Assembly: GCA_003577275.1 (NCBI GenBank)
Contig: QEVO01000001.1
Span: 124,001 to 188,000 of the forward strand
Length of the DNA: 64,000 nucleotides
DNA from: Pseudomonadota bacterium
Lineage (GTDB): Bacteria > Pseudomonadota > Alphaproteobacteria > Sphingomonadales > Govanellaceae
Direction: 5' to 3'
In this document: positions 39,377-61,327 of the stretch, piece by piece
How the letters are laid out: every line of letters begins with the position of its first letter
Numbering within the stretch: position 1 is the stretch's first letter
Notes under the pieces: model-generated
Database searches by the model: none
What the model was told of the DNA's origin: nothing
The model's input: the letters and a program-made list of their open reading frames with translations, nothing else
Made by a program: the position numbers and the translations under genes

Positions 39377-39459
<83 letters not shown>

Positions 39460-39481: not shown

Positions 39482-40690
39482 TTAGCCCTGATTTTGGGCT
39501 TTGTGTAATTCCTGTGTAATCGTGCCGGAATTACTGGCTGATTGGCCTATTGATAGGCCAAGTTCCAACCGTCCTTCCAGCCGATCCATGGCGGTATCAA
39601 TATGCGCGCCATTGGCGTGAGCGTAGCGCGCCACCATCACCATGGTTTTATGGCCTGAAATCTTCTGTACTGTCGGTAGGTCTACACCCGCCTGAACCAA
39701 GTGCGTGATGGCTGTGTGGCGAAGGGTGTGGCGGACGATAACATCAGGGTCCAATCCGGCGCGGGCCACTGTGCGGCGGAAGGCCTTGCGGACATCAACA
39801 ATATGTCCCGTCCGGCTGCTGATTTGCGGAAACAGCCATTCCGTTCCCTTGGGCAGCCCTGCCATATGCATGGCCAGAAAATCCCGCAGCTCGGTGGTAA
39901 TGGGCTGATCCCGAGCCCCGGCCTTGGCCTGGGGGATGAAGATACGGCGGCGCTCCAGGTCAACATGCTCTTTGCGGATAGCCAATATTTCCGATCTACG
40001 CATGGCTGTTGAAAGGCCAATGACGATGAAGGGATAAATGTAAGGGTTTTGGTCTGCCTTAGACGCCGCCACAAGGCTGGCGCACTGTTCCGCTGTCAGA
40101 TAGACTATGCGCCCCTTGTCTTCCTTGTAGCGTGTAATCTTTGCAGGGCGGCTGGCAATCCACCCCCATTCCACTGCTTTGTTAAACAGGTGGGATAGCA
40201 CGGCCAGTTCCCGATTAATGGTGGCCGGTGCCGCCTTCTGGTCTTCCCGCTTTTTGCGGTAGCGCGCTACGTCAAAAGAAGCGATCTTGGATAGGGGCCT
40301 ATCACCGAAAAATGGCACCAGATGCTGGTCAAGCTGTTTCTTTTTGCGGGCGACGTTGCGGCCACCTTCTTCCTTCAAACGGGTAATGTAGGAACCTGCC
40401 GCCTTGGCAAAGGATAAGGCTACCTTGCGGCCGCTGGGTAAAGCCAGACGGCCTTCCCGCGCCGCCGTGCGGGTTTGCTCTATGAATTGTTCCGCCTGAG
40501 TACGGGTGACGCCTTCGCTTTCGCGGCCAATAACCCGATGCACCCGGCAGCCGTCCACCATGATGTTGACAGTGAAAACGCCATCGCCATTGGCAAGCCG
40601 TTCAAACTTGATGCCATTTTCTATGATCTTCTGGCCTGCCGATAGTTTGCGCATGGCGGGCCGGGTGAGTTTTGAAAAGCTGATGGCCAT
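39482..40690 (-). CDS. Tyrosine-type site-specific integrase
   Basis: 402 residues, phage P4-like layout. N-terminal arm-binding region, core-binding SAM-like domain (FAKAAGSYITRLKEEGGRNV, VAPATINREL-type segment AAPATINRELAVLSHLFNKA) and catalytic domain with the first Arg in GLSTAMRRSEILAI, the H-x-x-R box RHTLRHTAITHLVQAGVDLP, and the nucleophilic Tyr in HKTMVMVARYAHANG. It lies 22 bases inside attL. Its C-terminal codons overlap the candidate arm site at 39498. Confidence 0.95.
   Translation of the reverse strand: MAISFSKLTRPAMRKLSAGQKIIENGIKFERLANGDGVFTVNIMVDGCRVHRVIGRESEGVTRTQAEQFIEQTRTAAREGRLALPSGRKVALSFAKAAGSYITRLKEEGGRNVARKKKQLDQHLVPFFGDRPLSKIASFDVARYRKKREDQKAAPATINRELAVLSHLFNKAVEWGWIASRPAKITRYKEDKGRIVYLTAEQCASLVAASKADQNPYIYPFIVIGLSTAMRRSEILAIRKEHVDLERRRIFIPQAKAGARDQPITTELRDFLAMHMAGLPKGTEWLFPQISSRTGHIVDVRKAFRRTVARAGLDPDVIVRHTLRHTAITHLVQAGVDLPTVQKISGHKTMVMVARYAHANGAHIDTAMDRLEGRLELGLSIGQSASNSGTITQELHKAQNQG
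39498..39519. promoter_or_regulatory. Candidate integrase arm-type site, left
   Basis: 22 bases (gctttgtgtaattcctgtgt then aa) containing a doubled TGTGTAA unit. The same 22 bases occur at 61125-61146 near attR, in the same orientation. Here they fall within the integrase 3' coding end. Confidence 0.6.
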
Positions 40691-47909: not shown

Positions 47910-47999
47910 AGCCCCGGTTGAGCATTCTCCTCTACCTATGGGTTCATGAAGGCACTTCTGCCGAAGTGTTGTCCCGCGCGCATTTTCATGAGGTCCCGT

Positions 48000-48755
48000 A
48001 TGAAAAGCAGAATTCGCCTTATCGTACCGATCATAACGGAGGGTCTGCGGACCGAGGCGCATGCCGCGGCGCTTGGCGATGATGATACCGAGATCAGCTT
48101 TGTCACCATAGACAACGGTCCGGAAACAATAGAGGGCGAGTTTGATGAAGTCTTTGCCAAGCCCGATACCGTAGCCAAAATAATTCAGGCTGAACAGGAT
48201 GGGGTTGATGCGGTGATTATCGACTGCATGGGTGATCCTGGCCTCGCCGCCGCTCGGGAAGCCGTTGCCATACCAGTGCTCGGGCCATGCCAGACCGCCA
48301 TGCATGTTGCTTCTATGCTGGGTCATAGATTTTCAGTAGTTACGGTTCTGTGCCGCCTGCAACCGCTCTTGGATAATCTTGCCAGCATCTACGGCGTAAG
48401 TGGGAAAATGACTTCCGTACGTTCTGTCGATATTCCGGTTATTGAACTGGACAAAGATCCGGAACGTTTGTGTCGTGCGCTGGCTGAACAGTCAATTCTG
48501 GCCATAGAGGATGATGGCGCCGATGTGATTATTCTAGGCTGCACCGGCATGGATGGACTGGCCGAAGCCATTGAAAACGAACTGATGAAAGCGCGCCTTA
48601 GCGGCGTGCCGGTTATTGATCCGATAAACGCTGCCATATCTTTGGCCAAAGCGTTGCTGCGTAGCAAGTTAAGTCACAGCAAACGCGCCTTTGGCTATCC
48701 TAGGCGCAAGAAAATTAAAGGATTTAATCTACCAACTTATGGCAATGAAGAATGA
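48000..48755 (+). CDS. Asp/Glu/hydantoin racemase family protein
   Basis: 251 residues from ATG 48000 (GAGG six bases upstream; the longer frame from 47946 has none). The two catalytic cysteines are seen in IIDCMGDPGLAAAREA (Cys76) and ILGCTGMDGLAEAIE (Cys181), the pattern of hydantoin/allantoin racemases more than amino-acid racemases. Metal-free two-base racemisation is expected. The C-terminal 25 residues are very basic. Its ATGA overlap with hyuA supports action on the same substrate or product. Confidence 0.88.
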   Translation: MKSRIRLIVPIITEGLRTEAHAAALGDDDTEISFVTIDNGPETIEGEFDEVFAKPDTVAKIIQAEQDGVDAVIIDCMGDPGLAAAREAVAIPVLGPCQTAMHVASMLGHRFSVVTVLCRLQPLLDNLASIYGVSGKMTSVRSVDIPVIELDKDPERLCRALAEQSILAIEDDGADVIILGCTGMDGLAEAIENELMKARLSGVPVIDPINAAISLAKALLRSKLSHSKRAFGYPRRKKIKGFNLPTYGNEE

Positions 48756-50359
48756 TTTCAAGTTCTAAAAAAATGCCGCTGCCCGCTTCGCTGCGTATCG
48801 GCGTTGATGTTGGCGGCACCAATACCGATGCTGTGGTCATGAGTGATACCGGGATTGTGTCATGGTTCAAGACGCCGACGACACCTGAAGTCGGGACAGG
48901 CATTTTCACCGCCATCAAACACATCCTGGAGGAAAACGACCTTCCCCCTGAATCGATCGGCAGCGTGATGATCGGGACGACCCAGTTTACCAATGCTCTC
49001 ATCGAGCGCAAGAAACTGGTGGAAGTGGGGATTATCCGTATTGCGCTGCCGGCGACAGCCAGCATTTCCCCTTTGACAGATTGGCCCAAAGACCTAGTAG
49101 AAATAATTGGCAGACATATTCATCTCGTTGCCGGCGGTTATGAGTTTGATGGACGAAAGATATCCGAGCTGGACGAAGACGCGATTTTCAAAGCTGCCCG
49201 GGATTTCAGAAAAAAAGGCCTGAAGGCGATTGCCATTTCCTGTGTCTTCTCACCCATGAGCGCGGCGATGGAGATGCGTGCGGCGGAAATTGTCATAAGT
49301 GAAATTCCGGACGCTAAAATCACCCTGTCCTCTGAGGTCGGCCGCCTGGGGCTTCTCGAGCGGGAAAACGCGGCTATTCTTAATGCCAGTCTGTCCCGCC
49401 TTGCCATCAGCGTGATCCAGTCCTGTAGCGCCGCTCTTAAGAGTTTAAAAATCAAGGCTCCCCTTTACATCAGCCAGAACGATGGCACCCTGATGGGAGT
49501 GGATCATGCTGAGCGTTTTCCTGTCATGACCTTCGCTTCGGGGCCCACCAACAGCATGCGTGGGGCAGCCTTTCTTTCAGGACTTGATGATGCCATCGTC
49601 ATCGATATTGGCGGCACAACGACGGACGTTGGGGTTCTTGCCAAAGGTTTTCCCAGAGAATCATCAGTGTCGGTCGATATTGGCGGTGTGCGCACCAACT
49701 TTCGTATGCCTGATATTCTATCAGTAGGCCTTGGTGGCGGCAGTCTGGTGCGCAGTGATGGCGCCATTACCGTGGGTCCCGACTCAGTGGGTTTCAGACT
49801 GAGCGAAAAGGCGCGTATTTTTGGCGGCGACGATCTGACTGCCACGGATATTGCCGTTGCCGCCGGTATCGCAAAAATTGGTAACCCTGCCGCGGTAGCA
49901 AGTATCAGCCCGGAAATAGTAAGCGATGCCATTAAAGTAATTCATCAAAGCATTACAAATGCGGTCGACCGCATGAAGACCAGCGCCAGGGAGATCCCCG
50001 TTATTCTGGTTGGAGGGGGCAGTATCCTGGCGCCGAAAACGATCCGCGGCGCCTCGCGCGTGATTATGCCCGAATATTATTCGGTGGCCAATGCCATTGG
50101 CGCCGCTATCGCCCAAGCCAGTGGTGAGGTCGACAAGGTTTATTCCTACGAATCGCTGGGACGTGACGGCGCTATTGAACAGGCGACTAAGGAGGCAAAA
50201 AATAGCGCCGTTTCCGCGGGCGCCGCGGCTGACAGCCTCAAGGTTGTCGATATTAGCGAATTACCGCTGGCCTATATGCCGGGAGGAACAGTCAGATTGC
50301 GCGTTAAGGTCGTTGGTGATCGCCCCGCCAGGCCAGTAAAAGCAGGGACGCCAGCATGA
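48752..50359 (+). CDS. HyuA-type hydantoinase/oxoprolinase family protein
   Basis: 535 residues, actin-like ATPase fold. The phosphate-binding motifs are RIGVDVGGTNTDAVVM (residues 15-30) and VIDIGGTTTDVGVLAKG (from about 283), and the adenosine-site segment is VILVGGGSILAPK. Family members use ATP to hydrolyse cyclic amides (5-oxoproline, N-methylhydantoin) with a second subunit; this shorter form is usually paired with DUF917, as here. It overlaps genes on both sides by 4 bases. Substrate inferred only as a cyclic amide. Confidence 0.88.
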   Translation: MISSSKKMPLPASLRIGVDVGGTNTDAVVMSDTGIVSWFKTPTTPEVGTGIFTAIKHILEENDLPPESIGSVMIGTTQFTNALIERKKLVEVGIIRIALPATASISPLTDWPKDLVEIIGRHIHLVAGGYEFDGRKISELDEDAIFKAARDFRKKGLKAIAISCVFSPMSAAMEMRAAEIVISEIPDAKITLSSEVGRLGLLERENAAILNASLSRLAISVIQSCSAALKSLKIKAPLYISQNDGTLMGVDHAERFPVMTFASGPTNSMRGAAFLSGLDDAIVIDIGGTTTDVGVLAKGFPRESSVSVDIGGVRTNFRMPDILSVGLGGGSLVRSDGAITVGPDSVGFRLSEKARIFGGDDLTATDIAVAAGIAKIGNPAAVASISPEIVSDAIKVIHQSITNAVDRMKTSAREIPVILVGGGSILAPKTIRGASRVIMPEYYSVANAIGAAIAQASGEVDKVYSYESLGRDGAIEQATKEAKNSAVSAGAAADSLKVVDISELPLAYMPGGTVRLRVKVVGDRPARPVKAGTPA

Positions 50360-51444
50360 AGCTTCAAGTAAAGGATCTGATCAATTTTTCTCGCGGCGCA
50401 GCCTTACTGGGTACTGGCGGAGGCGGCGACCCCTACATTGGGCGGCTGATGTTGGAACAAGCGCTGCTAAAAACCGGCAAGCTTAATATAATCAACCTTG
50501 GTGAAGTAGCAGATGATGCCCTGGTTGTTTCAGTGGCCATGATGGGAACCCCCACAGTTCTGGTCGAGAAATTTCCCAATGGTAGTGAAGCGGAAAATTG
50601 TCTGCGCGCCATGGAAGATGAATTGGGACGCTCCATAGATGCCATCATTCCTGCTGAAATTGGCGGGTTCAATTCTGCGATCCCCCTAGTGCTGTCAGCG
50701 CAAACTGGCATTCCCGTCATTAATGCTGATGGCATGGGGCGCGCTTTTCCGGAATTGCAGATGGTGACCTATAGCGCCTACGGTGGAGCTATTTCACCGT
50801 GTGTCATGACAAACGAACGTGGTGACGTCGTGACAATCAAGTCAACAAACAATCGTACCACGGAGATGCTGGCGCGCAGCGTTGTCATGCAAATGGGTGG
50901 CTCAGCCCAGATTTGTTGTTACCCCATGGAGGGGCGCTTCATAAAAAAATATGCCATTGCCGGAACATTGGATATTGCACTTGGCATTGGCAGCGCCATC
51001 TCCCAGGGCCGTGCTTCAGGTGATCCCTTTGAAGAACTGATATCTTATCTGGCAAGCACCGAACATTACCGGCATTCCAAACTGCTCTTTGATGGCAAGA
51101 TCGTCGATCTGGTGCGCAAAACAAGCGGTGGATTCACGACCGGAACCGCCAGTCTGTCGGAATTGGGCGCCTCGGAGGTCAGTTTCGAAATTGTCTTTCA
51201 GAACGAAAACCTGGCGGTTCGATCCGGCGGCCGGACGCTGGCTATCGTTCCAGATCTGATCTGTATACTGGACAGGGAAACTGCCGAGCCGATCACGACA
51301 GAAGCGTTGGCATATGGCCAGCGAGTCAAGGTTATGGCCGTGTCCGCGCCCGCGCTTTTGCGCTCTGATGCAGGGCTTCAGGCTTTCGGCCCCAAGGCGT
51401 TTGGCATCGATGAGCCATTCCGGCCATTCGAAAGCCGAGAATAG
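50356..51444 (+). CDS. DUF917 (S-methyl-thiohydantoin desulfurase domain) protein
   Basis: 362 residues. The family start ALLGTGGGGDPYIGRLML is clear, then IIPAEIGGFNSAIPLVLSAQ, INADGMGRAFPELQMVTYSA and the C-terminal ICILDRETAEPITTEALAYG. DUF917 proteins pair with HyuA and probably form its second catalytic subunit. The start overlaps the hyuA stop (ATGA). It ends the racemase-hyuA-DUF917 operon; the shared 18-bp element begins 5 bases after its stop. Confidence 0.9.
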   Translation: MKLQVKDLINFSRGAALLGTGGGGDPYIGRLMLEQALLKTGKLNIINLGEVADDALVVSVAMMGTPTVLVEKFPNGSEAENCLRAMEDELGRSIDAIIPAEIGGFNSAIPLVLSAQTGIPVINADGMGRAFPELQMVTYSAYGGAISPCVMTNERGDVVTIKSTNNRTTEMLARSVVMQMGGSAQICCYPMEGRFIKKYAIAGTLDIALGIGSAISQGRASGDPFEELISYLASTEHYRHSKLLFDGKIVDLVRKTSGGFTTGTASLSELGASEVSFEIVFQNENLAVRSGGRTLAIVPDLICILDRETAEPITTEALAYGQRVKVMAVSAPALLRSDAGLQAFGPKAFGIDEPFRPFESRE

Positions 51445-51448
51445 CCGC

Positions 51449-51466
51449 CTACCCTTTTTGGTCAAT
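51449..51466 (+). promoter_or_regulatory. 18-bp shared element before the TonB receptor gene
   Basis: CTACCCTTTTTGGTCAAT, ending 88 bases before the receptor start codon; one mismatch to 47892-47909. The stretch between it and the start codon is A/T-rich with further ATTG/CAAT repeats. Confidence 0.55.
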
Positions 51467-51554
51467 TGATAATTCACATTCCCATAATTACTGCTCAATT
51501 GGGCTTATGCGGCTAACGTATTCTTTAAGACAGCAAACCTGGGAGGTTAACAAT

Positions 51555-53768
51555 ATGAAAGAAAAGAGTAAATCGGGAACTTTGACGGCCACAATCGCGT
51601 TGACAATGATGATTCCTGTCGGCGGTTTTGCTCAGGGAATAATCGAAGAAGTTGTGATAACGGCAACCAAGCGCGGTGAGACCTTGCTGCAGGAGACGCC
51701 GCTTTCCATTACCGCTTTTTCTAGTAGCGATCTCGATGCCATGCACATGGAAAGCATCCGAGATCTGGGCAAGAACACGCCGGGATTGGTGGTGTCCAAT
51801 AACGCGTCCTACGCTCAGCTCTATATACGCGGCGTTGGCAGCAACAATGTGTTTATCGGCTCAGACCCAAGCGTTACGGTTCACATCGATGGCGTTTATC
51901 TGGCGCGCCCTTTGATGGTATTTACCGATTTTCTCGATATTGAGCGGGTTGAGGTTCTGCGCGGTCCGCAGGGTACTTTGTATGGGCGAAACTCCGCAGG
52001 CGGCACGATCAACATCATTTCCAGGCAGCCATCCAATGATCTTCGCATGTCGCTTGCCGGCGAATACGGCAATTATGACAAGCGCAAGCTAACGGGCAGC
52101 GTGAGCGGACCACTGGTAGATAACCGCGTCATGGCGGGTATTTCGATCCTCAAAAACGATCGTGACGGGTACGTGGACAATGTTAATCCGGATACTACCG
52201 CCGATAAACTCAATAATGAAGACTCGTTTGCCATTCGCGGAATGCTGAAATTTATCCCCAGTGAATCGGTGGAAGTTCTGATAAGTGGCGATTACTTCGA
52301 ATCGGAAGATTATGGGAACCAGAAAAAACCATTGCACGTGGACGGCTTCGGCAACCCTGTCGTTATCCCGATACCAGGCTTTTCGCCGACGATCATCAGC
52401 GATCCCTGGACCGTCAGTATCCCGGGCGATTATCCCAGTTATAATGATATGACAACCAAAGGTGTTTCCGGAAAGCTAACGGCCCATTTGTCGCCCGAGG
52501 TCACGCTGACATCACTTACCGCATATCGCAAACTTGACTTTAAGGCCATCGTCGACAGCGACGCCACAGATGTAGCTGCCATTGGTCCGTTCAACCCTGC
52601 GGATAAGCAGGATCAATTTTCCCAAGAGCTTCAGCTTACTGGCAATACAGGTAGCCTTGAATGGCTTGCCGGGCTCTACTATTTCACCGAAGAATCTGAT
52701 TTCCTAGCTACCGCTGAAGCGCCGTTTTTCGGATTGATTTTCTCTGGCTTCATGACCACTGATTTTCTATCTGTCAACGATGTAACAGGTAAGACGGATG
52801 CCTATGCGGCCTATGTGCAAGGCAGTTACGCCGTCAATGAAAAACTGTCACTAACGGCAGGCATTAGATACAGCCATGAAAAGAAATCAATTGATGCGTC
52901 GGCGTCGATATTCCTGGATGGATTTGAGCTTCCAATAGGATTTACAAATCAAGATAAAGATAGCTGGGACGGATGGACACCGAAGTTCGGGTTGGACTAC
53001 AAGGTCAATGATGATGTGATGCTCTATGCTTCTATTACCCGCGGCTTCAAAAGCGGCGGCTTCAACTTTTCCGCCGACCAGCCTTCCTTCGACCCGGAAT
53101 TTCTCTGGGCCTATGAAATTGGTATCAAGTCTGATTTGGCAGACAAGCGCCTACGTGCCAATGCCAGCGCCTTCTATTACGACTATACCGATCTTCAGGT
53201 GCAGGGCTTTAAGGATCTAAGTGATTCGGGGGGAGTAGCAGGTGTCATCTTGACAAATGCGGCGAATGCAACGGTAAAGGGGTTCGAACTTGAAGTGACC
53301 GCGTTGCCGGTGCCTCAATTCATGTTATCAGCCAGTGTAGCATACCTCGACGCTACTTATGATGAGTTCATAACGGCGCGTTCAGCAATGCCTACGGTTC
53401 CGGTCGATGTTTCCGGAAATGTACTCAACAACTCACCGAAGTGGGCATTTAATATTTCAGCGCAGTATGATGTGACGCTAGGCGATAAAGGTACTTTATC
53501 CTTCCGTGCTGGATATAAATGGCAGGACGATGTGTTCTTCAACTCGCAATTCAATGATCCACTGATGGGGCAGAAATCGTTCGGCCTCCTTGACGCCCGT
53601 ATCGGCTATATCTCTCCTGATAAAAGATGGGAGGTATCAGTGTTTGGTAATAATCTCACAGACAAGGCCTATTACACTGATATGGCGGATTATTCGCCAC
53701 TGGGCTTGATAGGGCATATCACGCCGCCTAGAACTTATGGCATCAAGCTTGCCTACAGGTATGAATAG
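51555..53768 (+). CDS. TonB-dependent outer-membrane receptor
   Basis: 737 residues from ATG 51555, preceded by GGGAGG. Signal peptide TLTATIALTMMIPVGGFAQG, TonB-box/plug start IEEVVITATKRGETLLQETP, plug signature VEVLRGPQGTLYGRNSAGGT, and a 22-strand-type barrel ending in the aromatic-rich TYGIKLAYRYE. Receptors of this type import substrates too large for porins. Its place in the cargo suggests it brings in the compound degraded by the HyuA/M24 enzymes. Distinct promoter region with the shared element. Confidence 0.95.
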   Translation: MKEKSKSGTLTATIALTMMIPVGGFAQGIIEEVVITATKRGETLLQETPLSITAFSSSDLDAMHMESIRDLGKNTPGLVVSNNASYAQLYIRGVGSNNVFIGSDPSVTVHIDGVYLARPLMVFTDFLDIERVEVLRGPQGTLYGRNSAGGTINIISRQPSNDLRMSLAGEYGNYDKRKLTGSVSGPLVDNRVMAGISILKNDRDGYVDNVNPDTTADKLNNEDSFAIRGMLKFIPSESVEVLISGDYFESEDYGNQKKPLHVDGFGNPVVIPIPGFSPTIISDPWTVSIPGDYPSYNDMTTKGVSGKLTAHLSPEVTLTSLTAYRKLDFKAIVDSDATDVAAIGPFNPADKQDQFSQELQLTGNTGSLEWLAGLYYFTEESDFLATAEAPFFGLIFSGFMTTDFLSVNDVTGKTDAYAAYVQGSYAVNEKLSLTAGIRYSHEKKSIDASASIFLDGFELPIGFTNQDKDSWDGWTPKFGLDYKVNDDVMLYASITRGFKSGGFNFSADQPSFDPEFLWAYEIGIKSDLADKRLRANASAFYYDYTDLQVQGFKDLSDSGGVAGVILTNAANATVKGFELEVTALPVPQFMLSASVAYLDATYDEFITARSAMPTVPVDVSGNVLNNSPKWAFNISAQYDVTLGDKGTLSFRAGYKWQDDVFFNSQFNDPLMGQKSFGLLDARIGYISPDKRWEVSVFGNNLTDKAYYTDMADYSPLGLIGHITPPRTYGIKLAYRYE

Positions 53769-53837
53769 ACGGCGGATATATCCATAATGAAGGTCGTTTG
53801 CAATGGGGATGACGGCCAAGGAGTTAGACACCGTCGG

Positions 53838-53867
53838 AGAGACCAGACTTTGACCGGTCTGGTCTCT
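53838..53867. terminator. 11-bp perfect hairpin after the TonB receptor gene
   Basis: Stem AGAGACCAGAC / GTCTGGTCTCT with an 8-base loop, 70 bases after the receptor stop. No U tract follows, so it may be an incomplete terminator or a 3' stabiliser. Confidence 0.55.
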
Positions 53868-53971
53868 TACTCAGAAAATCGGGCTTTCTTAACGTATAAA
53901 TTGTTCGCAATCCTCGGTGAAACAACAAGGAGCCTTTGTGCATTAGTCCAAGGGGCGGGAGGTTTCCATAT

Positions 53972-54439
53972 ATGCCAACAATAGTAATAGCCCATCGTGT
54001 GGAAGCGCCGGCGCGTAAAGTATGGGATCTCATGATGGGGTCGATCAAGACCGGCAAGTACGAGCACGGCGGGCTGTTTGAGGGGTTGGTGAAAAAAGGA
54101 TCAATCAAAGGCAAGGGAGAGGGGGCTATCATCACCAGCCTGATGGAACAGGATGGAGTGATTGCAAAAATTGTTGAGCGGATCGATAAGTTCGACGACA
54201 ATGACATGTTCATGAGCCACCGTATCATAGACTGCGGCCCGCTCCCGGTTACGGATTTCACCGTTGATATCCGCATTACGGCAAACGGTCCAGACGCGTG
54301 TTCTTACAAATTCGAAATGAAATATACTCCTTTGGCCGGCCCGGATGAAGAGGTCAGACAAATGGTCGTGGGTGGTGTGCAGCTACTGCATGCAAATTTG
54401 GAGAAAATGTTCAGCCCAGCAAAAAAGCATAGGAATTGA
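53972..54439 (+). CDS. SRPBCC/START-superfamily ligand-binding protein
   Basis: 155 residues, start ATG 53972 with GGGAGG upstream. IVIAHRVEAPARKVWDLMMG is the classic SRPBCC first strand and helix; the middle (KGSIKGKGEGAIITSLME) and the C-terminal helix (MVVGGVQLLHANLEKMFSP) complete the helix-grip fold. Members bind or cyclise hydrophobic ligands. No catalytic residue can be named; here probably a hydrolase, cyclase or carrier for the imported compound. Confidence 0.8.
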   Translation: MPTIVIAHRVEAPARKVWDLMMGSIKTGKYEHGGLFEGLVKKGSIKGKGEGAIITSLMEQDGVIAKIVERIDKFDDNDMFMSHRIIDCGPLPVTDFTVDIRITANGPDACSYKFEMKYTPLAGPDEEVRQMVVGGVQLLHANLEKMFSPAKKHRN

Positions 54440-54600
54440 TAAGCTATTTTGAGCGTGGAAAAACCCATATTTCGCTCATGAATTGGGTAATTGATAAATC
54501 TCGATCCTTTAATTACGATTGAATTGATTTTACGGGACTGACTACCGGCTTGATGACATCGCCGAGAGTAATACTCTATCCAGCACTAATGGAGTTATGT

Positions 54601-55803
54601 ATGAGGATAACGGATTTCGCGGAAAACCCGATTGACGACAGGAAGCTCGCAGAACTCAACAACGGTCGTTTGCATGAACTGATGCGCGCGAGAGGTGTGG
54701 ATGCGTTGTTCGTTATTGCGCCGGACAACTGGCGCTATGCGACCGCCCTGCCCATGCTTCATTCTATTTTTTCATCGATGGTAAATGCCGCTCTAGTTTG
54801 CCTTGACAAGCCCTTTCCGACATTATTCCCTTTGCAAGGATTTGGCAGTCCGATGAGTCAGCGCGCCCCATGGATGGAAGATATCGAAGAACTTCCAATG
54901 GAAGGCACAGGCGAAGGTTTGCAGCCGATGATGGTGGACAAGTGGCCGCAGATCATTGCCAACAAGCTGTCGCAGCTTGGCCTTTCCAAAAGCCGGATCG
55001 CTGTCGACCCGATGACGCCATTCGCCCTTAAAGAAGCAATACAAAATAGGTTGCAGACAGCCCAGATAGTAGATGGCGGCGAGATATTGCGCCAGGCGCG
55101 GCTGATCAAGAATGAAGAAGAGCTAAAGGCGTTGCGAAACGCCTGCCTGCTGGCGGATATCGCGATGGAAGACGCCTTTAAGGCGGTCCGCCCAGGCGCC
55201 AGCGAACTGGATATTGCCGCGGCTGCCGAACATTCGTTTCGGGTCCATGGGGCCGAATACAGCGCCTTCACGCCCCAGGTGTTCTCAGGTTTGAATGCGC
55301 TTATGCCGTATAACAGTCCATCTTCCAGACTCATACGTAACGGCGAATTGGTTAGGATTGATATTGGGTGTTGCTCTCACGGCTATCACTCATGTTTCGG
55401 CAGAACGGTTTACGTCGGCAGCCCGGACGATCAAGTGCAACAAGCCTACGCGGCTGTCCACCATGCATTGGCGGCGGGCATTTCTGCCGCCCGCCCAGGA
55501 GTGACTAACATAGAACTCCATCAAATCATGTCGCGGGCGCTAGATGAACATTCGGCAGGAAAATACGATCTTGGGTCCTATGGCGGCCATGGGTTGGGCG
55601 CTGGCATTCACGAAAACCCAATGATAGGTAGCCGTGGGGCGGTCGAAGAGATGGTGCTGGAGGCCAATATGTGTATCGCGCTGGAGCCGTCGGTGATGGT
55701 TCCCGGCCGAGGATGGCTGGGCCTGGAAGATAATATTATCATTACCTCGTCCGGTTGCGAGGTAATGACGACAACACGCTTTGAACTGGACCCGAAAGCA
55801 TGA
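54601..55803 (+). CDS. M24-family hydrolase (Xaa-Pro peptidase-like) with one altered metal ligand
   Basis: 400 residues from ATG 54601 (GGAG six bases before). N-terminal creatinase-type domain (HELMRARGVDALFVIAPDNW) and C-terminal pita-bread domain. Of the five metal ligands, Asp254 (VRIDIG), His330 (GGHGLGAGIHENP), Glu362 (ALEP) and Glu376 (GLEDNI) are present, but the second Asp position, eleven residues after Asp254, is Cys265 (YHSCFGRTVYVG). Prolidases and aminopeptidase P cut Xaa-Pro bonds with two metals; this one may bind one metal or use another mechanism. Confidence 0.88.
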   Translation: MRITDFAENPIDDRKLAELNNGRLHELMRARGVDALFVIAPDNWRYATALPMLHSIFSSMVNAALVCLDKPFPTLFPLQGFGSPMSQRAPWMEDIEELPMEGTGEGLQPMMVDKWPQIIANKLSQLGLSKSRIAVDPMTPFALKEAIQNRLQTAQIVDGGEILRQARLIKNEEELKALRNACLLADIAMEDAFKAVRPGASELDIAAAAEHSFRVHGAEYSAFTPQVFSGLNALMPYNSPSSRLIRNGELVRIDIGCCSHGYHSCFGRTVYVGSPDDQVQQAYAAVHHALAAGISAARPGVTNIELHQIMSRALDEHSAGKYDLGSYGGHGLGAGIHENPMIGSRGAVEEMVLEANMCIALEPSVMVPGRGWLGLEDNIIITSSGCEVMTTTRFELDPKA

Positions 55804-55918
55804 ATCGATATGACGGCAAGCGGCAAGACTGGAAGATAGCGTATAGCCTTGGCCGCTCTTCATTGTAAAGGTCTGCGGATCAGAAATAGAATAATGTGCA
55901 AAGGGCAGGAGACGTCCG

Positions 55919-56917
55919 ATGAAAGCAGTGGTAGCGACCCGGTTCGGCGCTAGTGACGTACTGGAATATTGTGAAGTTGATAAACCGGAACCGAAGAGCG
56001 GTGAGTTGCTGGTCAGGGTGAAGGCTACGGCTGTGGGATTCGGTGACACGCTTATCCGAATAGGCGCCTACAGAGGTGGGCCAGACAGTCATTCCTACTC
56101 GTTGCCTGCGGTTCTTGGTTTTCAAGCCAGTGGTATTGTCGAAGGCGTGGGCAACGGTGTTTCTAATAACTGGCTCGGTCGTCGCGTCGTCGCCAACGCC
56201 GCACATACCAATGCGGAATACCTTGTTTGCTCGGAAGGGTCGGCTGTTGAGATGCCGGACTCTGTCGATTTTGACGTCGCGACATTGATACCGAATTTTT
56301 ACCTCACGGCTTATCACCTGCTGCACACGGCAGTCACCGCCAGGGCGGGGCAGACCGCAGTTGTTTGGGCGGCGGCGGGGGGCGTGGGGACAGCGCTGGT
56401 GCAACTGGCCAAACATGTCGGCCTGAAGGTTATCGCCATGGCCGGAAGCGCCGAAAAATGCGCTTTCGCCCGTGCCCAGGGCGCTGATCATGTGATCGAG
56501 TATGGGCACGAACAGGTATCGCAACGGGTTTTGGATTTGACGGGGGGAGCCGGGGTGGACTTGGTTTTCAATCCAGTTGCCGGCGATACGATCAACGACG
56601 ACGTGCGTATGCTCGTGCCTCACGGTAAGGCGGTTATATACGGACTGATACAAGGTCTTCCAAAGCCTGATGCTGTTCAGACTCTTTTGTTCGAGGTAAT
56701 GGCCAAAAGCCTCTCTATTAGCATGTTCAGTCTATGGACCGTTATGGAACACGAACCAGAACGCATCAGGCAATCGCTGCGGGAACTTTTAAAGCTGCTC
56801 GAAGCAGGCAAGATTGCACCGCAAATATACGCCAAACTACCGCTGTCTGATTTGGCCAAGGGTCACGATTTGCTGGAAAGCCGGAAAGTCATGGGCAATG
56901 TGGTTATCGAGCCATGA
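55919..56917 (+). CDS. Zinc-independent quinone oxidoreductase/MDR-family dehydrogenase
   Basis: 332 residues. N-terminal MKAVVATRFGASDVLEYCEV is typical of NADPH:quinone oxidoreductases; the NADPH-binding motif is VWAAAGGVGTALVQLAKHVG. No zinc-ligand cysteine cluster is seen. CAGGAG precedes ATG 55919. It would reduce a quinone or alpha,beta-unsaturated carbonyl; its role in the pathway is unknown. Confidence 0.9.
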   Translation: MKAVVATRFGASDVLEYCEVDKPEPKSGELLVRVKATAVGFGDTLIRIGAYRGGPDSHSYSLPAVLGFQASGIVEGVGNGVSNNWLGRRVVANAAHTNAEYLVCSEGSAVEMPDSVDFDVATLIPNFYLTAYHLLHTAVTARAGQTAVVWAAAGGVGTALVQLAKHVGLKVIAMAGSAEKCAFARAQGADHVIEYGHEQVSQRVLDLTGGAGVDLVFNPVAGDTINDDVRMLVPHGKAVIYGLIQGLPKPDAVQTLLFEVMAKSLSISMFSLWTVMEHEPERIRQSLRELLKLLEAGKIAPQIYAKLPLSDLAKGHDLLESRKVMGNVVIEP

Positions 56918-56944
56918 AAAACGAGTGTAACGATGGGAAGCGCG

Positions 56945-58126
56945 ATGCAGAATCCTGAATTTGAATCATTATTGCCCTTCACCAAGGAAGAATATGAAAG
57001 CCGTATTCGGCGCTTCAAGGCCGAAATGGCGCGCCGACAGCTGGATGTTATGCTGCTCTATTCCAATCATAGTTTCTTCTACCTTTACGGCTATGATCTG
57101 GCCGCTGGGGCGGCGATCCCCTATCAGACGATCATTGCGCCGCTTGATGGTGAACCCACGGCCTTCGTGCGCAATACCATGGCGCAGTGGGTGAGCCGTT
57201 CGCCTTTCCTTAACGATATTCGGACCTATGACACGCCGTTCGATGCCGATAATGCCAAGAAGACGGTGGAAATTCTCAGCGATTTAGGTCTGTTGTCGGG
57301 CAAGAAAATTGGCATCGAAATGCGAAGCCAAACGCTGAATGCCTATGACTATGATCTTATCCGTCAGCATGTGGCGCGGGGAGGCGGTCATCTGGTCGAT
57401 GCCAGCGATGTGGTGATGGAGCTTCGTATCCATAAGTCGACGGCGGAGGTCGCATGCATGCGCCAGGCTGGAATTTTGTATGACGTCTTCATGAGCGCAG
57501 CTTTTTCCGCCATTCAGCCGGGCGTACGCGAATGCGACGTCAATGCCGAAGCTTTGCACGCTTATCATCGCGCGGGGGGAGAAGATATTGCCCAACCCCT
57601 GATGATGATTCCGGCAATCATGTCGAAGTCGCATATGCTTCCGCCTACGCGTCGGATGCTGGAGTCCGGAGAGCCGCTTTTTATCGAGGCCGGCGCATGC
57701 TTCAATCGCTATCATGTGGTCGGCGGAACCACGGTGTTTTGCGGATCTGAGCCGGGCAATGACGTGCGGGAAGCCTATGCCCGAGCCCGCGAAGCGGTTA
57801 ACGTGACCCGGTTCTTGATCAAGCCCGGGATGGCGACGTCAGCTATCATCCAAGAAGTACTGGCTGCCCGCGATATAAAGGACCACGAAGCCTTTCATGC
57901 CGGTTACAGCATCGGCATTGGTTACCGCAATCTATGGCACGAAGATCTGATCATACGGGTCGGTGATAACCATGTTCTGGAAAAAAACATGACCTTAAGC
58001 CTATTCGGTTTTGCCACGATAGGGGAGTGTTTTTGTATCGTAGCGGATCCCATCGTCATCACCGACACGGGTTTTGATGATCTGTCTGCCCTGCCGCGCG
58101 ACGAAATCTTCGTCGCCGGTGCGTAA
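56945..58126 (+). CDS. M24-family creatinase-like hydrolase lacking all metal ligands
   Basis: 393 residues from ATG 56945 (GGAAG upstream; ATG 56933 also possible). It starts LLPFTKEEYESRIRRFKAEM and continues VMLLYSNHSFFYLYGYD, as in creatinase and ectoine hydrolase. Of the five M24 metal ligands none is kept: Glu248 (FIEAGA) for the first Asp, Val259 for the second, Tyr321 (GYSIGIG) for His, and LFGFATIG / VADPIVIT in place of the two Glu. Creatinase-type enzymes also work without metal on C-N bonds, so a metal-free ring or amidine hydrolase is plausible. Confidence 0.85.
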   Translation: MQNPEFESLLPFTKEEYESRIRRFKAEMARRQLDVMLLYSNHSFFYLYGYDLAAGAAIPYQTIIAPLDGEPTAFVRNTMAQWVSRSPFLNDIRTYDTPFDADNAKKTVEILSDLGLLSGKKIGIEMRSQTLNAYDYDLIRQHVARGGGHLVDASDVVMELRIHKSTAEVACMRQAGILYDVFMSAAFSAIQPGVRECDVNAEALHAYHRAGGEDIAQPLMMIPAIMSKSHMLPPTRRMLESGEPLFIEAGACFNRYHVVGGTTVFCGSEPGNDVREAYARAREAVNVTRFLIKPGMATSAIIQEVLAARDIKDHEAFHAGYSIGIGYRNLWHEDLIIRVGDNHVLEKNMTLSLFGFATIGECFCIVADPIVITDTGFDDLSALPRDEIFVAGA

Positions 58127-58139
58127 AAAGCCGCTCGTA

Positions 58140-59357
58140 ATGTCTGTGGCCAATCATCAGAATCTATTTCGCTGGGCCGTTGTAGCTCTTCTGTTCCTGT
58201 GTATCCTGTTTATCGAGATGTCCTATTCTTGTCTGCCGCCGCTGTTTTCACAAATCAGTCAGGACATTCCGTTAAGCAAAGTCCAAATGGGAATGATCTA
58301 TGGAGTAGTGTCGCTGGCGGCGGCGGGATTTGCCCTAATCGGCGGGGTGCTCAGCGACATCATTGGCTCACGTCGGGCTATCGGCGGGGCTTTGCTTACC
58401 GTTGCGGTTTTTGGCGGGATGCGAACCTTTGCAGACAGCGTGACGGAGCTAACGGCGTTGACCTTCATTGTCGGATTGGCCCTCGCCCTTATCCCCCCCA
58501 ATGTTGCAAAGGTACTAAGCGTCCGGTTTCCTCAAAGTGAACTTGGAAGGGCGTACGGGATCGTTCTTACAGCCGTGCCGATCGGGGTCGGGCTGGGGAT
58601 TGCAACCGGTGCGAGCGTCCTTGCTCCAAATTTTGGAGGTTGGCGGGGGGTGATGGAATTCGTTGCTTTCAACTGCCTTATGATGGGAGTGTTTTGGTTA
58701 CTGGTGTTCCAGGAAAAGAAACTTGCATCCGATGAACAAGGCAAGCTGCGAATGATAGCAGAGAATATTAAAGCAGTGTTCCCAATCAAGGATTTGTGGC
58801 GTATCGCAGTATTCAGTTGCTGCTTTTTCTTCGCCATGGGATCGCTTATGAGTTTATTGCCGATCGTTTTGGAAGAAAGGGGCATAGCGCGTTCGGGTGA
58901 ACTGGCATCATTAATCATGTGGGCAAGTGTGTTGGGCAGCCCGCTTGGCGGAGTGGCCTCTGATAAAATCGGGAAAAGAAAACCATTTTTAATAATACCC
59001 GCCATTGTCATGGGACTATGCATCCCCTTATTTCTTCTGCTAACGGGAATTTCCCTTACACTACTTTTGTTGATCGCTGGATTTGCCAGCGGCATGATTC
59101 TGCCCATTATGCTGACAACGTTGATAGGATTGGAAAGAATCGGCGTCTCGCATATTGCCACCGCCGTAGGGCTGGTGATGATGGTTGGAAATACGGTTGG
59201 CTTTACTGGGCCGATAATATCGGGCGCTTTGATAGACTTAAGCGGTTCGCCCTGGCCGTCGTTCCTATTGACATCCACCATTCTGTTTATCGCTGCTGCC
59301 GTTATTTCGACTTTTCCTCATCAGGTCCGGCAATCGGTGGAGACGTTGAATAATTGA
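58140..59357 (+). CDS. Major facilitator superfamily transporter
   Basis: 405 residues, twelve hydrophobic segments. MFS loop 2-3 motif is GGVLSDIIGSRRAIGGALLT and its repeat in the second half is GGVASDKIGKRKPFLIIPAI. Start ATG 58140; the frame extends upstream into the M24 gene. Likely the inner-membrane porter for the substrate brought by the TonB receptor, or an exporter. It is the last gene of the A/T-richer cargo. Confidence 0.92.
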   Translation: MSVANHQNLFRWAVVALLFLCILFIEMSYSCLPPLFSQISQDIPLSKVQMGMIYGVVSLAAAGFALIGGVLSDIIGSRRAIGGALLTVAVFGGMRTFADSVTELTALTFIVGLALALIPPNVAKVLSVRFPQSELGRAYGIVLTAVPIGVGLGIATGASVLAPNFGGWRGVMEFVAFNCLMMGVFWLLVFQEKKLASDEQGKLRMIAENIKAVFPIKDLWRIAVFSCCFFFAMGSLMSLLPIVLEERGIARSGELASLIMWASVLGSPLGGVASDKIGKRKPFLIIPAIVMGLCIPLFLLLTGISLTLLLLIAGFASGMILPIMLTTLIGLERIGVSHIATAVGLVMMVGNTVGFTGPIISGALIDLSGSPWPSFLLTSTILFIAAAVISTFPHQVRQSVETLNN

Positions 59358-59543
59358 ATTGTTCTGTTTGTTGCCCTTGAAAAAAAACAACAACGAAGTT
59401 TCTGACGCAAAAATACCGGCTTAGGGCCGCTACGGGGAAAAATCCGCCGACGGCCAAACAGCGGCCTTCTTATATTCAATACTTGCGTTATTATTGAAAT
59501 ATAGACACGTTATTTTTAGCTCCAAAAAGGTGAAAGAAGAAGC

Positions 59544-61275: not shown

Positions 61276-61327
61276 CTGAAAATCCGCGTGTCGCTGGTTC
61301 GATTCCGGCCCTGGGCACCATTTATTT
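61276..61327 (+). repeat. attR, right 52-bp attachment repeat
   Basis: Identical to 39408-39459. It restores the 3' 45 bases of tRNA-Phe but no 5' half, so it is not a gene. The upstream sequence (ggaaaataaac) is unrelated to the tRNA. Confidence 0.95.

Follow-up and report, generated by a model that had tools for sequence, protein, structure and literature searches.

Is an M24 protein that has lost its metal ligands still an enzyme, and if so, of which kind? This question was raised by a gene located at positions 56945-58126 (+) of the window, the whole stretch of 64,000 nucleotides analysed here. A reading made from the sequence alone had described its product, here named M24b, as an M24 pita-bread enzyme with all five metal ligands replaced, possibly a third metal-free type acting on a C-N bond.

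The M24b gene

The gene consists of an intact ORF encoding 393 residues (P0001). An alternative ATG is present at 56933, four codons upstream of the ATG at 56945; the latter was preferred as the start because a GGGAAG motif is located immediately 5' of it. Pfam searches yielded 76.6 bits for Peptidase_M24 (cut-off 23) and 44.9 bits for Creatinase_N (cut-off 22), as found for proteins of the creatinase/prolidase fold. Both the location and the family first given for M24b were confirmed.

An ortholog with 76% identity was found in a MAG labelled Acidobacteria (locus L007), and a paralog with 38% identity in the same genome as M24b (L013/L073). The dN/dS ratio between M24b and its ortholog was 0.09-0.10, similar to that of the neighbours M24a and QOR. 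A ratio of about 0.1 indicates purifying selection, which argues against a decaying gene; as the ORF is intact and an ortholog exists, an artefact or a frameshift was rejected as well. Among the sampled genomes, those with relatives at E ≤ 1e-20 numbered 5 of 198 from the order, 70 of 398 from the phylum and 93 of 385 from the class. Viral contigs were also searched to deepen the alignment and contained no further relatives. An AlphaFold2 model built from an alignment of P0001 and its L007 ortholog only reached a mean pLDDT of 36, too low for use.

Genomic setting

M24b belongs to an operon of nine genes (47946-59357, all +), which is carried as a whole by a genomic island (39377-61327) at a tRNA-Phe gene (39377-39452). 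The features are as follows; the integrase-like ORF and the TonB-dependent receptor were assigned from the sequence by eye.

39408..39459, +, left copy of the 52-bp att-like repeat, which overlaps tRNA-Phe at its 3' end
39482..40690, -, integrase-like ORF beside the tRNA-Phe repeat
47946..48755, +, Asp/Glu/hydantoin racemase family protein
48752..50359, +, HyuA-like hydantoinase/oxoprolinase subunit
50356..51444, +, DUF917 / S-Me-THD-like protein, related to thiohydantoin desulfurases
51507..53768, +, TonB-dependent receptor, probable substrate uptake
53936..54439, +, SRPBCC (Polyketide_cyc2) protein, upstream of M24a
54586..55803, +, M24a, second M24 protein, ligands Asp-Cys-His-Glu-Glu
55919..56917, +, QOR, quinone-oxidoreductase-like (PIG3-like) dehydrogenase between M24a and M24b
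56945..58126, +, M24b, DoeA-like M24 protein with E248/V259/Y321/F354/A367 at the ligand positions and M231 replacing the catalytic His
58134..59357, +, MFS transporter directly 3' of M24b
61276..61327, +, right 52-bp att-like repeat at the other island end, an exact direct copy

The G+C content is 0.49-0.60 inside the island as compared to 0.60-0.68 in the preceding 10 kb. The genes for the racemase, the HyuA-like protein and DUF917 overlap successively by 4 bases. In a second genome of the genus (L006), the operon is 99-100% identical over 51441-59540. The HyuA/DUF917 region (48741-51141), however, is mostly 72-82% identical in the two genomes, and its flanks are mostly 97-100% identical, which suggests allelic replacement or an assembly mosaic.

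The L007 locus harbors, in this order, DUF2817, M24a, a racemase of the same family as the one in the window, QOR and M24b. M24a and QOR are 75% and 76% identical to their window counterparts, respectively, with QOR just upstream of M24b in L007 too. The conserved core therefore comprises M24a-QOR-M24b plus the racemase, and the close conserved partners of M24b are an atypical M24a and a QOR-family reductase. In M24a, Cys replaces the second (bridging) Asp and Tyr replaces the catalytic His, and the L007 protein is identical in both respects. M24a is rare, as the 398 phylum genomes contained no other match to it at E ≤ 1e-60. The HyuA/DUF917 pair had been taken as support for amide or amidine chemistry of M24b. 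The pair is indeed present, but the argument is weak: it is located 5.5 kb upstream of M24b, belongs to the diverged allele and was not found in the L007 locus, a contig of only 7.25 kb.

Related genes occur in other settings. The paralog (L073, G000:C4:130000-149900), with its catalytic His intact, is located near a TonB receptor, DUF2817, a QOR-family gene, an SDR and acyl-CoA ligase-like genes; this receptor-bearing locus of the paralog (L013) includes a 41% homolog of the TonB-dependent receptor of the M24b operon. Rhizobium plasmids carry a comparable, non-orthologous cassette of M20 aminoacylase, ABC transporter, DoeA-like M24, DUF2817, racemases, a second DoeA-like M24 and an amidohydrolase. 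The Rhizobium/Phyllobacterium plasmid cassettes L118:4437-16653, L078:2440-14405 and L077 have two or three DoeA-like M24 genes together with an M20 aminoacylase, an ABC transporter and an amidohydrolase; those from Rhizobium additionally contain DUF2817 and racemases. At L121:6774-13598 and L098:8728-15623, a tandem DoeA-like M24 pair directly precedes sarcosine oxidase genes; the L121 pair also adjoins genes annotated as ectoine transporter EhuABCD.

Metal-ligand positions and the DoeA-like group

M24b was aligned with the metal-dependent prolidase 5cdl, in which the ligands are D, D, H, E and E. The five positions read E248, V259, Y321, F354 and A367. Hence, the ligand set of M24 metallopeptidases is replaced throughout (Asp by Glu248, Asp by Val259, His by Tyr321, Glu by Phe354 and Glu by Ala367), as first proposed, and the numbers then given for Glu248, Val259 and Tyr321 were right. 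An hhalign comparison of M24b with the profile of the ectoine hydrolase DoeA gave a probability of 100% over 373 columns, and the ligand positions read EVYFS in the ortholog and EVYFG in the paralog; the loss is therefore not an alignment slip. Furthermore, M231 and E248 are 17 residues apart, equal to the spacing between His and the first ligand in DoeA.

DoeA itself reads E-P-Y-M-T, and Glu at the first Asp position together with Tyr at the His position was found in 55 of 64 aligned rows. Loss of the five ligands is therefore a trait of the whole group rather than a peculiarity of M24b, and the exchange of the first Asp for Glu, common to all DoeA-like proteins, is a conservative change. The pair is missing from nine rows, which comprise M24a, two DNYE rows, the prolidases and the creatinases. 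M24b combines the Glu/Tyr pair with Y256 and W331 and thus falls into the DoeA-like group, across which R76, Y256, Y321 and W331 are near-invariant. All four are present in M24b, as are the group residues E248 and H257, the latter being conserved across most of the family.

A single clade for the 55 Glu/Tyr rows was not rejected by the AU test (p-AU 0.27), a result compatible with one origin that falls short of proof. A careful tree was calculated without two "canonical" rows of the first tree, which had very long branches and are probably wrong-frame ORFs. Here, M24b, its ortholog, its paralog L013 and a homolog from a Microvirga plasmid (L076) were joined with support of 99/98, and this clade is located outside the branch holding both ectoine hydrolase types.

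M24 proteins have thus lost the metal site more than rarely, as a large proteobacterial protein group carries the DoeA-type site. In the plasmid records examined, such proteins are often labelled "Xaa-Pro peptidase family protein", but a peptidase function is unlikely.

The catalytic histidine

In M24b, Met231 occupies the position of the M24 catalytic His, and Met is also found in the 76% ortholog. The His is kept in DoeA, creatinase, prolidase, the paralog (L013/L073) and the Microvirga homolog. His230 adjoins Met231 in M24b; the ortholog has Asn at this position. On the tree, the catalytic-His position has changed at least four times, namely to Met (M24b clade), Phe, Arg and Tyr (M24a), and the Phe and Arg lineages retain the Glu/Tyr signature. 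Since several lineages of the DoeA-like group have Met, Phe or Arg instead of the His, the catalytic apparatus of this fold is more plastic than would be expected from the two characterised types, which is directly testable. The unusual feature of M24b is the additional loss of the catalytic His and not the ligand loss. It had escaped the sequence-only reading and is the one feature that could justify calling M24b a new type.

Two further His residues, H318 and H332, are common to M24b, its ortholog and its paralog L013. Ser and Leu are found instead in L076, and DoeA-like proteins generally lack both His residues.

Proposed function and alternative explanations

We lean towards M24b being an active, metal-independent DoeA-like pita-bread hydrolase whose active site has been rebuilt and whose target is a C-N bond of a small nitrogen compound. 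The analysis shows the family, the loss of the ligands and of the His, the conservation of the DoeA-group residues, the purifying selection and the conserved M24a/QOR neighbours, from which we infer the absence of metal, the hydrolase activity, the substrate class and the roles of individual residues. A small nitrogen compound would be imported via the TonB receptor and the MFS transporter and bound by the DoeA-group residues R76, E248, Y256, H257, Y321 and W331; M24b would then open or cleave its C-N bond without metal. As the canonical His is gone, the acid/base work would have to be done by E248 and H257 or by the clade-specific H318/H332, and the chemistry may thus involve E248, H257, Y321 and perhaps H318/H332. 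Opening of a ring by an M24 protein and subsequent deacylation would resemble the two-step pathway of DoeA/DoeB (EutD/EutE) (PMC8739950). As first suggested, an M24 enzyme that attacks a C-N bond without metal stays the best guess; its designation as a third metal-free type on account of ligand loss is not supported, since DoeA and 55 of the 64 rows have the Glu/Tyr pair.

A more far-reaching version is tentative at best. Here, M24b would be a metal-free and His-free pita-bread hydrolase in which a new set of residues (E248, H257, Y321 and the clade-specific H318/H332) is responsible for catalysis, possibly in an obligate pair with the Cys-ligand protein M24a, and would act on an undescribed nitrogen heterocycle.

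With Met231 in place of the catalytic His, the activity of M24b is not assured. It might be a non-catalytic pseudoenzyme that forms a heterodimer with its neighbour M24a and has, for example, a regulatory or scaffolding role in it. M24b lacks the five ligands as well as the catalytic His, M24a neighbours it in both known settings (window and L007), contacts in M24 dimers are sometimes extensive (PMC4108388), and M24 proteins that are not peptidases exist (PMC3888471). However, M24b keeps the six DoeA-group residues, the two His-less lineages with Phe and Arg hold the same Glu/Tyr signature, M24a is an atypical M24 protein, too (DCHEE, with Tyr replacing the catalytic His), and no M24 gene adjoins the paralog L013. 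We therefore regard a pseudoenzyme as unlikely.

A displaced metal site, with E248, H257, H318, H332 and D368 binding metal in a new arrangement, appears still less probable. The conservation of H318 and H332 in M24b, its ortholog and its paralog, and of H257 in most of the family, would fit such a site, but H318/H332 are replaced in L076 and generally missing from DoeA-like proteins, and most M24 rows have D or E at the D368 position regardless of whether the ligands are kept.

That M24b is an ectoine hydrolase is hardly credible: although the DoeA models are its best NCBIfam matches, it scores far below both cut-offs, no ectoine gene was recognised nearby, and the tree places it outside the group with both DoeA types.

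Comparison with known systems

M24b shares its fold family with Xaa-Pro dipeptidase/aminopeptidase P and has lost their metal ligands and catalytic His. The same fold family is found in creatinase (1chm, 7yto), which has non-canonical metal positions like M24b and hydrolyses a C-N bond, as M24b presumably does. The ligand positions of creatinase read N-A-H-E-H (L070, confirmed against 1chm). Its catalytic residues are His232, Glu262, Glu358 and Arg335; in the alignment with 1chm they correspond to M231, G261, F354 and H332 of M24b. As none of the four is kept, use of the creatinase residues by M24b was rejected. The alignment to creatinase, ectoine hydrolase and prolidase that had been proposed as a check thus gave a clear answer: the creatinase residues are not shared, whereas those of the DoeA group (R76, E248, Y256, H257, Y321, W331) are. 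A stretch of 3.8 kb at L070 encodes both a creatinase, which scored 536 bits to 7yto, and a DoeA-like M24 protein with Arg at the catalytic-His position.

DoeA is presumably metal-free, as judged from its sequence; the literature searched contained no statement of its metal content. The best solved matches of M24b were the DoeA structures 6twj/6twk (E about 1e-26), and its top NCBIfam matches were the two ectoine hydrolase models, DoeA (TIGR02993; 134.5 bits, cut-off 613) and ectoine_DoeA_2 (NF038259; 172.9 bits, cut-off 575). True members reach 825 and 745 bits, respectively; M24b is therefore not an ectoine hydrolase by curated score, and the substrate of DoeA is not transferable to it.

Experiments have established DoeA, an M24 family member similar to creatinase, as an ectoine hydrolase (PMC3187862). 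DoeA/EutD (TIGR02993; 6twj, 6twk, 6yo9) and M24b are alike in fold family, in length and in the absence of the five metal ligands, and both have Glu in place of the first Asp ligand and Tyr in place of the His ligand as well as Arg76, Tyr256, His257 and Trp331. They differ in that identity is 25-29%, the catalytic His of DoeA is Met231 in M24b, the other ligand positions are Pro/Met/Thr in DoeA and Val/Phe/Ala in M24b, and the WG motif of DoeA is WH in M24b; unlike DoeA, M24b has no recognised ectoine gene cluster nearby. DoeA_2 (NF038259) reads EAYIS and thus carries the same Glu/Tyr signature as M24b, together with the catalytic His that M24b has lost.
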